A program made the translations under genes and the position numbers. Source: Gammaproteobacteria bacterium (lineage in GTDB: Bacteria; Pseudomonadota; Gammaproteobacteria; Pseudomonadales; Azotimanducaceae). Taken from it: 62,639 nucleotides of DNA. This document shows positions 5,733 through 21,745 of this stretch, in pieces; positions within the stretch are counted from its first letter, which is position 1, and each line of letters begins with the position of its first letter. Under the pieces are notes generated by a model. It saw nothing but the letters and a program-made list of their open reading frames with translations, searched no databases and had not been told where the DNA came from. The stretch covers positions 1 through 62,639 of the forward strand of contig JAPOYV010000082.1 in NCBI GenBank assembly GCA_026706385.1, written 5' to 3'.

Positions 5733-6929
5733 ATGGCCACCGAGAGTACCCAAGACATTCCTGCCGCCGTGATGCCGACCTATGGTCGCATTCCCGTGTC
5801 GTTCGTCCGCGGCGAGGGCAGCTACGTCTACGACGACACCGGCAAACGGTATCTCGACGGCTTGACGGGGATCGCCGTTTGCGGCTTGGGACACGCGCAC
5901 CCCAAGGTGGCCGCGGCGCTTGCCGAGCAGGCTTCGACCCTGCTGCACACCTCGAACCTCTACCGGATTCCGGCACAGGAACGCCTCGCGGTGAGACTCA
6001 CCGAAATCGCCGGGATGGACAACGTCTTCTTCTGCAACTCCGGTGCGGAAGCGAACGAGGCGGCGATCAAGATCGCTCGCCTCTACGGCCACAGCCGCGA
6101 CGTCGATGCGCCCGCCGTCGTGGTGGTCGACAACAGTTTCCACGGTCGCACCATGGCCACGCTGACGGCCACCGGGAATCGCAAGGCCCAGGCCGGGTTC
6201 GAACCGTTGTTGGCCGGCTTTGTCCGCGCGCCCTACGACGACATCGCGTCGTTGGAGAAGATCGCCGCCAACAACAAGAACGTCGTCGCGGTCCTCGTGG
6301 AGCCGATCCTTGGCGAGGGCGGCATTCGGATTCCCGACGCCGGATACCTCGATGGTCTGCGCGCCGTATGCGACGCCAACGACTGGCTGATGATGCTCGA
6401 CGAAGTCCAGACGGGCAACGGTCGCACGGGGCGCTACTTCGCCTACCAGCATACGAACATCGTTCCGGACGTGGTGGCGACAGCCAAGGGGCTCGGGAAC
6501 GGCATGCCGATCGGGGCCTGTCTGGCGCGGGGCGTGGCCTCGGAGATGCTCGTCGCCGGGACGCACGGCTCTACCTTCGGCGGCAATTTCCTCGCCTGCG
6601 CCGCAGCCAATGTGGTCGTTGACGAGTTGACCGAAGGGGGATTGATCGAGCGTGCCGCCGAACTCGGCGAGCGGATGCAGGCCAGGTTTCGCACCGCTCT
6701 ACGCGGCAACAACCGCGTCAAGGATATTCGTGGCGTCGGCCTGATGCAGGCCGTCGAACTCGTCGAACCGTGCACGCAACTCATCGGCGAGGCCGTCGAG
6801 CAGGGCCTGCTGCTCAACGTTGCGGCCGATTCGGTGATCCGCCTGCTGCCGCCGCTGACCATGTCGGATGCCGAGGCCGATACGCTCGTGGACATGGTCG
6901 TCGGCCTGATCGAGTCCTTGGATTCCTAG
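5733..6929 (+). CDS. argD: Acetylornithine/succinyldiaminopimelate aminotransferase
   Basis: 398 residues, a class III PLP aminotransferase that converts N-acetylglutamate semialdehyde to N-acetylornithine in arginine synthesis and often also serves lysine synthesis. Visible motifs: FFCNSGAEANEAAIKIAR (phosphate site), VLVEPILGEGG, MMLDEVQTGNGRTG, and the PLP lysine K252 in ATAKGLGNGMPIGA. argF follows 97 bp downstream. The TAG stop sits inside the CCTAGCGG end of repeat copy C. Confidence 0.93.
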   Translation: MATESTQDIPAAVMPTYGRIPVSFVRGEGSYVYDDTGKRYLDGLTGIAVCGLGHAHPKVAAALAEQASTLLHTSNLYRIPAQERLAVRLTEIAGMDNVFFCNSGAEANEAAIKIARLYGHSRDVDAPAVVVVDNSFHGRTMATLTATGNRKAQAGFEPLLAGFVRAPYDDIASLEKIAANNKNVVAVLVEPILGEGGIRIPDAGYLDGLRAVCDANDWLMMLDEVQTGNGRTGRYFAYQHTNIVPDVVATAKGLGNGMPIGACLARGVASEMLVAGTHGSTFGGNFLACAAANVVVDELTEGGLIERAAELGERMQARFRTALRGNNRVKDIRGVGLMQAVELVEPCTQLIGEAVEQGLLLNVAADSVIRLLPPLTMSDAEADTLVDMVVGLIESLDS

Positions 6930-7010
6930 CGGCGCTGCGCCGTAGCGAGTAGCACGAACGCCTAACGGCTAGGAGAGACGGATCTGACTGTGAGCAATCA
7001 ACCGCGGTCA
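6925..7010 (-). repeat. Interspersed 86-bp intergenic repeat, copy C
   Basis: Oriented on the minus strand, the element reads TGACCGCGGTT (7010-7000), then 26 bp, then a 49-mer (6973-6925) ending GCGCCGCTAGG. The 49-mer matches copy B at about 40 of 49 and copy A at about 35 of 49 positions by hand alignment. Its ends CCTAGC and GCTAGG are inverted repeats. It fills nearly the whole argD-argF gap, and the TAG in its CCTAG terminus is the argD stop codon. Confidence 0.75.
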
Positions 7011-7026
7011 TGAGAATAGAACCGTG

Positions 7027-7926
7027 ATGTCCGCGCGACACTTCATCACGCTCGACGACTTCGCGCCGGATGAACTGAAGCGCATCGTCGCGCGCGGCGC
7101 TGCGCTCAAGGAAATGCACCAGGTCGGCACGCGCTACCAGCCCTTGGTGGGCAAGACCCTGGCCATGATCTTCGGACTTCGTTCGACGCGCACGCGGGTG
7201 GCGTTCGAGGCCGGCATGAGCCAGCTCGGCGGGCACGCGCTCTTCATCGGCCCCGCCGACTCGCAACTCGATCGCGGGGAACCGCTCGAGGACACCGCCA
7301 AGGTGCTCGCGGAGATGGTCGATGCCGTGATGATCCGCACACTCGAGCATGCCCACGTGGAGCGTTTCGCAGCCGCGTCGGGCATCCCGGTGATCAATGG
7401 CATGTCAAACACGTCGCACCCGTGCCAATTGCTGGCCGACGTGCAGACGTTCAACGAATACCGGGGCGACATCGCCGGCGCGCAGGTGGCCTTCGTCGGC
7501 GACGGCTACAACATGTGCAATTCCTACGTCCGGGCCGCGCGCTTGTTCGGCTTCGACCTCAGGGTCGCGACGCCGCCCTGTCATCAACCGGATCTCGAGC
7601 TTCTCGGCGGCGCGAACAATGTGCATCTCGTCGACTCGCCGCGCGAAGCGGTGGACGGTGCCGACCTCGTGGTCACCGACGTCTGGTCGTCCATGGGTCA
7701 TGAGGGGCAGGAAGATGATCGGCTGCGGGCGTTCGCGGGCTTCCAGGTGACCCGGGCACTGCTCGACGTTGCCGATCAGGATGTGCTGTTCATGCATTGC
7801 CTGCCGGCGCATCGCGGCGAGGAGATCAGCGGCGATCTGCTCGACGACCCGCGTTCGGTGGCTTGGACGGAAGCCGGCAACCGGTTGCATTCGCAAAAGG
7901 CGTTGCTGGAGTTTCTGCTCTGCTGA
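7027..7926 (+). CDS. argF: Ornithine carbamoyltransferase
   Basis: 299 residues. Condenses ornithine and carbamoyl phosphate to citrulline. The carbamoyl-phosphate loop STRTR is at residues 53-57, [11 protein letters not shown] follows, DVWSSMGHE is the ornithine-side segment, and the HCLP motif (H257, C258) closes the site. A GTG at 7024 directly before the ATG is an equally possible start. It follows argD on the same strand behind repeat copy C, whose presence may separate or tune the two genes (inference). Confidence 0.93.
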
Positions 7927-7954
7927 TCAAAACTGGCGCTTTAGGAGGATTGTG

Positions 7955-20549: not shown

Positions 20550-20553
20550 GGCG

Positions 20554-21090
20554 ATGGGGGCGTCGCCAATGCTCGGTGCCGCGTTGGGGTTCGCGTTGCT
20601 CCTCGGCGCGGCGGCTTGGCGGAAGTTCGGTGACTTACCCGCCTTTACCGTCGTGGTCGCCGACTATCGGATCGTGCCGCGGGCGTTGCTGCCTCACGCG
20701 GGCGCTTTCGTGCCCGCGGTCGAGGCCACTCTTGCCTTGCTGTGGCTCACGGCGCCGTGGTACGCCAATGGGGCCGCGGTCGCCGGTTTCGGTACGGCGG
20801 CGCTGATGGTCGGCTACGCCGCGGCAATCGCCGCGAACTTGGTGCGTGGGCGTTCCTGGATTGACTGCGGCTGCGGAGGCGGCGACCAGTTGACGTGGGG
20901 GCTCGTGGCGCGCAATGCGGTCCTCGCTGGCCTAGCCGTCGCCACGTTGGCGTTTCGCAGCCCAGGAGCGCCGGACTGGGGCGACGTTGCCGTGTCTGTA
21001 CCGGTGCTTGCCGTCGCGACGCTGCTATATCTCACCACCGGTGCCTTGCTGGCCAATAGTGCGGCGATGCGCACGTGGCGCGAGGCTTGA
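20554..21090 (+). CDS. mauE: MauE-family membrane protein for amine dehydrogenase maturation
   Basis: 178 residues with about five transmembrane helices (GAALGFALLLGAAAW, AFVPAVEATLALLWLTAPWY, AVAGFGTAALMVGYAAAIAA, and two more near the C-terminus). The loop SWIDCGCGGGDQ holds the paired cysteines typical of MauE, which is thought to feed reducing power or otherwise support folding of the disulfide-rich small subunit. The ATG at 20554 is four bases after the large-subunit stop; mauD follows three bases after its own stop. Confidence 0.88.
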   Translation: MGASPMLGAALGFALLLGAAAWRKFGDLPAFTVVVADYRIVPRALLPHAGAFVPAVEATLALLWLTAPWYANGAAVAGFGTAALMVGYAAAIAANLVRGRSWIDCGCGGGDQLTWGLVARNAVLAGLAVATLAFRSPGAPDWGDVAVSVPVLAVATLLYLTTGALLANSAAMRTWREA

Positions 21091-21093
21091 CCG

Positions 21094-21663
21094 GTGGCAC
21101 TTGCGCTCGACATCGTGCTCTGGGTATTCGTCGGCGTGTTGACCTTGGCCGTGCTGGCTCTCGCACGCCAGGTCGGCGTGCTCAATCAGCGCGTGGCACC
21201 CGCCGGTGCGCTCATGCCGACGACCGGGCCCAAGGTCGGCGAATTGACCGAGGCCGTCGAAGCGGACGATCTTGCCGGGACGGCTCACCGCTTGGGCGGT
21301 CCGTCGCCAGACGACACGCTGGTGCTGTTCATCTCGCCCACGTGTCCCATGTGCAAGGCGCTGCTGCCGGCCGCGCGGTCGCTGGCGGCGGCGGAGAGCC
21401 TGCGACTGGTGTTCGCAAGTGACGGGTTCGACGCCGCGCGGCACCGGGCGTTCGCGAGCGACGTGGGACTCGAGCGTTTCCCCTATGTGCTCTCGCAGGC
21501 GCTCGGGATGCGTTACGGCGTCAGCCGGTTGCCGTTCGCGGTGCTCATCGGCGCGGACGGCGTGTTGCGCGGGCGGGGACTCGTGAACTCCCGGGAACAC
21601 CTCGAGAGCTTGGTCGAATCGTGGCGCACCGGCGTCGCGACGCTGCAGGACTATTTCGCTTGA
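21094..21663 (+). CDS. mauD: MauD, thioredoxin-like disulfide factor
   Basis: 189 residues: one N-terminal membrane anchor (IVLWVFVGVLTLAVLALARQ) and a periplasmic thioredoxin-like domain with the CPMC active site (C84, C87). MauD is needed for disulfide formation and stability of the small subunit of methylamine dehydrogenase. Start is GTG 21094. The TGA stop (21661-21663) is the beginning of repeat copy B, which separates mauD from the small-subunit gene. Confidence 0.9.
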   Translation: MALALDIVLWVFVGVLTLAVLALARQVGVLNQRVAPAGALMPTTGPKVGELTEAVEADDLAGTAHRLGGPSPDDTLVLFISPTCPMCKALLPAARSLAAAESLRLVFASDGFDAARHRAFASDVGLERFPYVLSQALGMRYGVSRLPFAVLIGADGVLRGRGLVNSREHLESLVESWRTGVATLQDYFA

Positions 21664-21745
21664 CCGCGGTTCATGGTTTCGGTTGGATCAAGTCGTTCTG
21701 GCCGTTTGGCGTCCGTGCTTCTTGCGTCGGCGGAGCGCCGCTAGG
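21661..21745 (+). repeat. Interspersed intergenic repeat, copy B
   Basis: TGACCGCGGTT at 21661-21671 (its TGA is the mauD stop), 25 bp, then the 49-mer at 21697-21745 starting TCTGGCCGTTTGGCGTCC and ending GCGCCGCTAGG. Matches copy C at about 40 of 49 and copy A at about 38 of 49. It fills most of the gap between mauD and the small-subunit gene, so it lies in the 5' leader of that message if the genes are co-transcribed. Confidence 0.75.

Follow-up and report, generated by a model that had tools for sequence, protein, structure and literature searches.

The window, i.e., the whole stretch of DNA that was analyzed, is the 62,639-nucleotide contig JAPOYV010000082.1 (C94) of a 5.1-Mb, 134-contig draft genome of a Gammaproteobacteria bacterium, here labelled G000. 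It harbors three copies, denoted A, B and C, of a short interspersed repeat, each found at the 3′ end of a gene. Copy C resides on the reverse strand at 6926..7019 (flanking tetranucleotides included, as for the other copies), between an aminotransferase gene (argD-like, 5733-6929) and an ornithine carbamoyltransferase gene (7024-7926). Its inserted part, 6930-7015, is flanked by CTAG at 6926-6929 and by ATAG at 7016-7019, where the latter reads CTAT on the element strand. Copy A is located on the forward strand at 11698..11835, with TCAG at 11698-11701 and CTAG at 11832-11835. The gene before it is of the biotin-carboxylase type (10181-11710), and the open reading frame (ORF) that follows starts at about 11853. 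Copy B, also on the forward strand, extends over 21651..21744, with CTAT at 21651-21654 and CTAG at 21741-21744. It is found in a methylamine dehydrogenase (MADH) gene cluster (19284-22436), at the end of a gene (21094-21663) situated between those of the heavy (19284-20549) and light (21801-22436) chains. The neighbors were assigned using Pfam, except that the gene at 21094-21663 has no Pfam match and could be called mauD only by its position between the MADH chain genes.

An initial annotation, made from the letters of the window, described these copies as 86-bp repeats composed of a left motif, a spacer and a 49-mer, and its coordinates and anatomy are borne out. The motif TGACCGCGGTT is found without mismatch at 7000-7010 on the reverse strand (C), from 11708 (A) and at 21661..21671 on the forward strand (B, where the frame was read from the sequence). 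It is followed by a spacer of 26 (C), 69 (A) or 25 (B) nucleotides and by a 49-mer that does not vary in length among the copies and in copy B (21697..21745, forward strand) comprises, by sequence comparison, the core TCTGGCCGTTnGGCGTCCGTGC and the right-end GGCGnAGCnCCGCTAGG. The pairwise identities of the 49-mers, 40/49 (B-C), 38/49 (A-B) and 35/49 (A-C), are also exact as given. Random sequence does not yield equally good matches, i.e., in 60 order-1 Markov windows the best 49-mer match was 30 (A), 33 (B) and 31 (C), and the best further position of the real window reaches 27 (A), 27 (B) and 29 (C) of 49. The bounds CCTAGC/GCTAGG ascribed to the 49-mer apply to copy C only; those of A and B begin with TCTGGC. 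The 86-bp unit was correctly positioned, but the element is larger, about 82-90 bp, and starts about 6 nt before TGACC. Copy A is longer because an unrelated 45-bp palindromic repeat is nested within it (11744..11788, forward strand).

DNA and pattern searches of the G000 genome revealed additional copies. A covariance model built from eight copies identifies 21 copies in the whole G000 genome at E<=0.01, including these eight, with E values of 2.6e-16, 4e-14 and 1.4e-17 for copies C, A and B, respectively. Among the 58 genomes searched, the same threshold gave 15 copies in G007, 5 in G009 and 1 in G006, all of the same genus, and no copies in the other 54, of which twelve are of the same genus (covariance model with stricter filters, which lose weak matches). 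Thus, the scan that the initial annotation had proposed reveals further copies, the absence of which it had counted against a repeat family. The 19-base core, searched for without mismatch in the genome collection, gave 11 records. The whole element is found in three of these, from two bins both titled Gammaproteobacteria, COS1_bin_18 (i.e., G007) and SB0662_bin_60 (i.e., G009). The remaining eight are, as judged by eye, without the left end, and one of them, L051 (Salinivenus), still reaches 20.6 bits with the model. Plasmids and phages gave no match with one copy used as query, and IMG/VR viral contigs do not contain the exact 19-base core.

The comparisons described below are based on a set of 46 copies, composed of 28 G000 loci (21 that pass E<=0.01, plus 7 weaker matches retained after inspection by eye), 12 of the 15 from G007 (three matches without a locus were left out), 5 from G009 and 1 from G006. 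The copies occur in both orientations, and those of the window are 86-129 bp long, without coding capacity. As seen in profiles of 41 copies and with all 46 lined up on TGACC, the left end has C, T, A/G and G/T at positions -10 to -7, followed by TTTGC and TGACCGCGGTT. In other words, a CTA(G/T)-like tetranucleotide begins 10 nt before TGACC, and the left-end motif is (CTA[G/T])TTTGCGTGACCGCGGTT. CTAG itself is found exactly at -10 in 12 of the 46 copies; for comparison, the whole 62,639-base window contains 50 CTAGs. TCTGGCCGTTnGGCGTCCGTGC forms the middle, and GGGGCGnAGCCCCG and CTAG make up the right end, with a short GC-rich palindrome before the CTAG. The right-end CTAG is present in 33/46 copies, a figure that is somewhat favored as the model spanned the right CTAG but not the left one. 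The end sequences are TTTGCGTGACC (left) and GGGGCGnAGCCCCGCTAG (right), where the former is unrelated to the reverse strand of the right end, CGGGGCTACGCC, i.e., no terminal inverted repeats (TIRs) are seen in the profiles by eye. Tandem copies in G009 have a single CTAG-like junction in common, and a second subfamily has a different middle (e.g., G0_C24, G0_C40 and G7_C54). A left-end fragment without a right end is found at the same locus in both G000 (L126, C111:45737) and G007 (L127, C18:28391).

The genome G007 is that of a close relative; its ornithine carbamoyltransferase is 95% identical, blocks aligned between the two genomes are 89-93% identical, and it is collinear with the first 25 kb of the window. 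Empty sites, which the initial annotation had suggested should be sought, are found in G007 for all three window copies. Here, the BLAST blocks break at 6927/7022 (C), 11697/11829 (A) and 21654/21741 (B), and a fourth break, at 13797/13952, is a divergent stretch found in both genomes. On the element strand, the empty site of A reads GCGCG-CTAA-CGGGC and the filled site GCGCG-TCAG-[element]-CTAG-GGGC; that of B reads GCAGGA-CTAT-GTACAGG when empty and GCAGGA-CTAT-[element]-CTAG-GTACAGG when filled; and at C an empty TCAG corresponds to CTAT-[element]-CTAG. For the other copies, 150-base left flanks were matched against the sister genome. The flanks of 24 of the 25 further G000 copies were matched in G007, with 10 sites empty, 9 filled (two of them much diverged) and 5 not clearly readable. 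Conversely, 10 of the 12 G007 copies were queried (one of the others has repeats in its flank and one is orthologous to a G000 copy); 9 flanks were matched in G000, where 7 sites are empty, one of them according to BLAST coordinates, and 2 are not clearly readable. Seven hard-to-read sites were compared, and the three with larger differences that were read are not parent-like.

Copy B is a readable example of how such an element can deprive a gene of its final 19 codons. In G007, the gene upstream of B ends in ATLQDYVQEIGGVGVFDPRSSKENG and a stop, while in the window it ends in ATLQDYFA, with the stop supplied by the TGA of the element, and the 19-residue tail of the G007 product, VQEIGGVGVFDPRASKESG followed by two stops, remains in frame behind B. 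Copy B thus cut 19 codons from the upstream gene, i.e., this difference is an insertion and not a loss. The earlier description of the copies as filling intergenic gaps does not hold for B, which interrupts the 3′ end of a gene, as compared to G007, rather than occupying a pre-existing gap.

The target was examined in 19 pairs of empty and filled sites, with the seventh empty G007 site left out. Exactly four bases are found between the flanks in 13 of the 19 empty sites. This tetranucleotide differs from CTAG by at most one base in 12 sites by script (13 after re-reading of A), 4 of them exact, compared to a chance expectation of about 1 of 19 (about one in twenty random tetranucleotides); three mismatches are seen in 4 sites by script and in 3 after re-reading. 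The re-read recount takes into account a one-base indel at site A and a corrected left tetranucleotide of G7_C63. Where a copy has unequal left and right tetranucleotides, the empty site matches the left one at position 1 (5:1, or 4:1 re-read) and with the right one at positions 3-4 (15:2, or 14:2 re-read); the exceptions at position 4 are B and G0_C40, which go the opposite way. This junction tally speaks against a plain 4-bp duplication of CTAG and weakens a forward IS605 polarity, which was initially preferred. The target is CTAG-like, and the copies are a repeat family, present or absent at orthologous positions.

A link to stop codons was a central claim of the initial annotation, according to which each copy supplies the stop of the upstream gene. 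This is true of the three window copies, although in different ways, but it is not a rule, since only 13 of the 46 copies coincide with a gene stop. In addition to the case of B, the TGA of copy A ends the upstream ORF three codons past the TAA of the relative, with three codons and the TGA standing in place of this TAA, and copy C provides a TAG at the same codon where G007 has TGA. With gene ends from a home-made codon-usage gene caller, the 13 copies at the last codon of a gene comprised 6 that use the right tetranucleotide, 4 that use the left one and 3 that use the TGA. The TGA of TGACC is found nine bases after the TAG of the left tetranucleotide and, when the spacing is 10, in the same frame, i.e., it offers a second stop three codons on and takes over where CTAG is absent on the left. 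Ordinary CTAGs, which are not part of a copy, behave similarly: in the window 6 coincide with stops, 14 lie between genes and 26 within genes, and in 46 kb of G007 the numbers are 4, 5 and 28. Stops thus make up 10 of the 29 non-genic ordinary CTAGs, about the same share as for the copies. Furthermore, CTAG is scarce in the window, with 50 seen compared to 198 expected from base composition and 95 from trinucleotides. Because CTAG is a scarce palindrome that includes TAG, surviving insertions in either orientation fall mostly outside genes or exactly at stops. The link is therefore better understood as following from the CTAG target than as functional, which offers a plain account of repeats that "supply stop codons", i.e., gene ends are a natural landing place.

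Taken together, A, B and C very probably represent a family of non-autonomous mobile elements of about 82-90 bp that are TIR-less, CTAG-directed and so far found only in four genomes of the same genus. The term "non-autonomous mobile" of the initial annotation fits the dispersed multi-copy family, the empty sites in a close relative, the lack of coding capacity and the occurrence in both orientations. Its alternative, a repetitive extragenic palindrome (REP) or bacterial interspersed mosaic element, is not shown in the strict sense, given a CTAG tag instead of GTAG/CGTC, a unit that is not a single short palindrome and hairpins without covariation. The element inserts at CTAG-like sites, usually adding itself and four bases, with two different ends, a left (CTA[G/T])TTTGCGTGACCGCGGTT motif and a right GC-rich palindrome followed by CTAG. 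Movement would be due to a transposase acting in trans, and most insertions that survive selection are those outside genes or precisely at stop codons. The unfamiliar, mobile-type repeat family is real, and a TIR-less CTAG-directed miniature element represents a modest novelty.

A number of observations weigh against this interpretation. The copies are not near-identical (among 32 of the 46 copies, the best pair is at 0.89 and the mean is 0.69), although blocks aligned between the two species are 89-93% identical and many copies are found in one species only, which does not look like a recent replicative burst. The flanking tetranucleotides are, over the 19 sites, not plain copies of the target. 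An autonomous parent was not found at Y1 or TnpB loci or in an end-matrix scan, where IS630 genes were not searched for. Column shuffles of the aligned hairpins reach the observed values in 218, 216, 187, 298 and 92 of 500 cases for all measures, i.e., in 218 for the percentage paired and in 92 for the covariation score. The low similarity of the copies would be explained by conservative relocation of old copies, a lost diverse source pool or, in part, by losses.

With respect to the mobilizing enzyme, we consider a single-strand one (HUH/Y1, IS200/IS605- or REP-like) slightly more probable than a DDE enzyme that targets TA. It is quite possible, though tentative, that the family is a single-strand element resembling REPs or palindrome-associated transposable elements (PATEs), moved by a RAYT-like or other Y1 transposase of these genomes. 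Such a mechanism would be consistent with the lack of TIRs, the palindromes near both ends, the fixed tetranucleotide tag, the divergent copies and the absence of an identical target duplication. Six Y1 matches are found in G000, G007 and G009, and the two Y1 proteins scanned with the RAYT model match it, one above and one below the NCBIfam cut-off; in contrast, G006 has one copy and no Y1 match. The Y1 loci are without the ends of this element within the flanks examined, where two loci are at contig ends and not every end is readable, and hairpin covariation is not seen. A RAYT-like Y1 protein is found as several similar copies, 91-93% identical in those compared at the DNA level, at the end of C77, at the start of C123 and in C33 of G000, as well as in C23 and C13 of G007 (L111-L115), where two of these copies sit at contig ends.

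The resemblance to known single-strand systems is partial. GTAG REPs and REPINs are, as is this family, short non-coding repeats located mostly outside genes and near gene 3′ ends, often with TAG stops (PMC3733652, PMC8266576), and it is already published that termini of GTAG REPs often provide the TAG stop codon (PMC3733652), which the present elements likewise do. As in REP/RAYT systems, RAYT-like genes are present in three of the four carriers. The same source describes RAYT genes as bordered by GTAG repeats or by unrelated TIRs (PMC3733652), whereas the RAYT-like loci examined here are not flanked by this element. Also unlike GTAG REPs, the family carries CTAG at both ends of an asymmetric unit of about 90 bp with unlike ends, its palindromes are weak and without covariation, and 21 copies were detected. 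A GTAG or CGTC tag beside a 20-40-bp palindrome was not found, the tag being CTAG. In addition, replacement of GTAG by CTAG lowered cleavage by one RAYT in vitro (PMC8266576), which weighs against a RAYT-like enzyme here. PATEs of Haloquadratum are also without inverted repeats and have near-terminal palindromes (PMC3119063); they are further similar to this family in being too short for a transposase, in having divergent copies and in their presence or absence between genomes. They differ in that the palindromes of PATEs are related to those of IS605-type transposons in their own genome (PMC3119063); no such parent was found here.

Searches beyond the Y1 loci gave the following. TnpB is found in one of the four carriers (G007, 2 loci), with ends unlike those of this element within about 1.5 kb. 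The end-matrix scan of L001-L184 (many of them overlapping) and the window revealed no long element with both ends. A pair of ends about 2.3 kb apart in L053 encloses an ORF that is not a transposase; we take it to be PpiD-like, and the ORF just before it to be HU-like. In L095 (1502-2100, G007 C11), a weak left-end match is seen 598 bases from the right end of a G007 copy. An integron attC site was considered, since the attC core is GTTRRRY and the GTTRGGC of the present element resembles it, but was rejected, as no facing partner box was seen by eye.

More doubtful is a TA-targeting DDE transposase (IS630/Tc1-mariner) that duplicates the TA inside CTAG, in which case the family would consist of miniature inverted-repeat transposable elements (MITEs) with decayed inverted repeats. 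By the title of Tenzen & Ohtsubo 1991, IS630 reportedly prefers TA within CTAG, and the CTAG preference observed here would fit. The junction tally, in which the left tetranucleotide agrees with the empty site at position 1 and the right one at positions 3-4, also implies that only middle bases could be duplicated. Yet, the two ends are without a common inverted repeat, and B and G0_C40 are contrary at position 4. Bacterial MITEs, especially those of IS630, are similar in being short, non-autonomous and inserted at CTAG (PMC2170065). This family differs from IS630 MITEs in having no TIRs and no clear TA-only duplication. The ERIC/RU, Correia and similar intergenic elements have TIRs or other targets. 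They are like the present family in being intergenic, dispersed and about 100-150 bp in length, a comparison made by description only (PMC10969869).

It is unlikely that the copies are for the most part ancestral, with precise loss from G007 (or G000), such that most empty sites would be excisions. Copies at empty sites are no closer to each other than other copies are (32 copies), which would fit losses, but the uninterrupted gene at B is clearly the older state. At site C, five same-genus genomes with a readable argD end by argF (L136, L137, L138, L144 and L145) are without the element; the remaining loci have a different junction or one that was not read. Improbable, too, is a TIR-less CTAG family whose ends are recognized by different rules and whose old, diverged copies are relocated conservatively, and not amplified, by a transposase yet to be linked to it; conservative relocation would explain species-specific sites without near-identical copies.

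The hairpins bear on a further alternative. The covariation test suggested in the initial annotation gives no support, either from column shuffles or from RNAalifold, which gives -0.83 kcal/mol. The named hairpin pairs form in 78% of cells (72-88% per helix), compared to 30-44% when slid, where high pairing is expected because the structure was taken from the same sequences. An identity as conserved regulatory or terminator RNAs of intergenic regions, and not mobile DNA, is very improbable, even if the copies are often found directly behind a gene, given that Rfam has no match at the window copies (gathering score) or in five further loci (E<=0.1), that covariation is lacking, that both orientations occur and that 13 of the 28 G000 copies are empty in G007.

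The 45-bp palindromic repeat nested in copy A, TCTTGCGAGGGGCnnGCCCCTCGCGCTCCCCGGCTGAGGGCT, is a second, more homogeneous repeat that recurs in more than 10 other loci and is found in many loci of both G000 and G007, singly and in tandem. Examples are L052 (3235-3370, three units in tandem beside another copy of the element), L150, L050, L104 and L040, among others. Finally, the window contains an exact 35-bp tandem duplication at 27665-27734.

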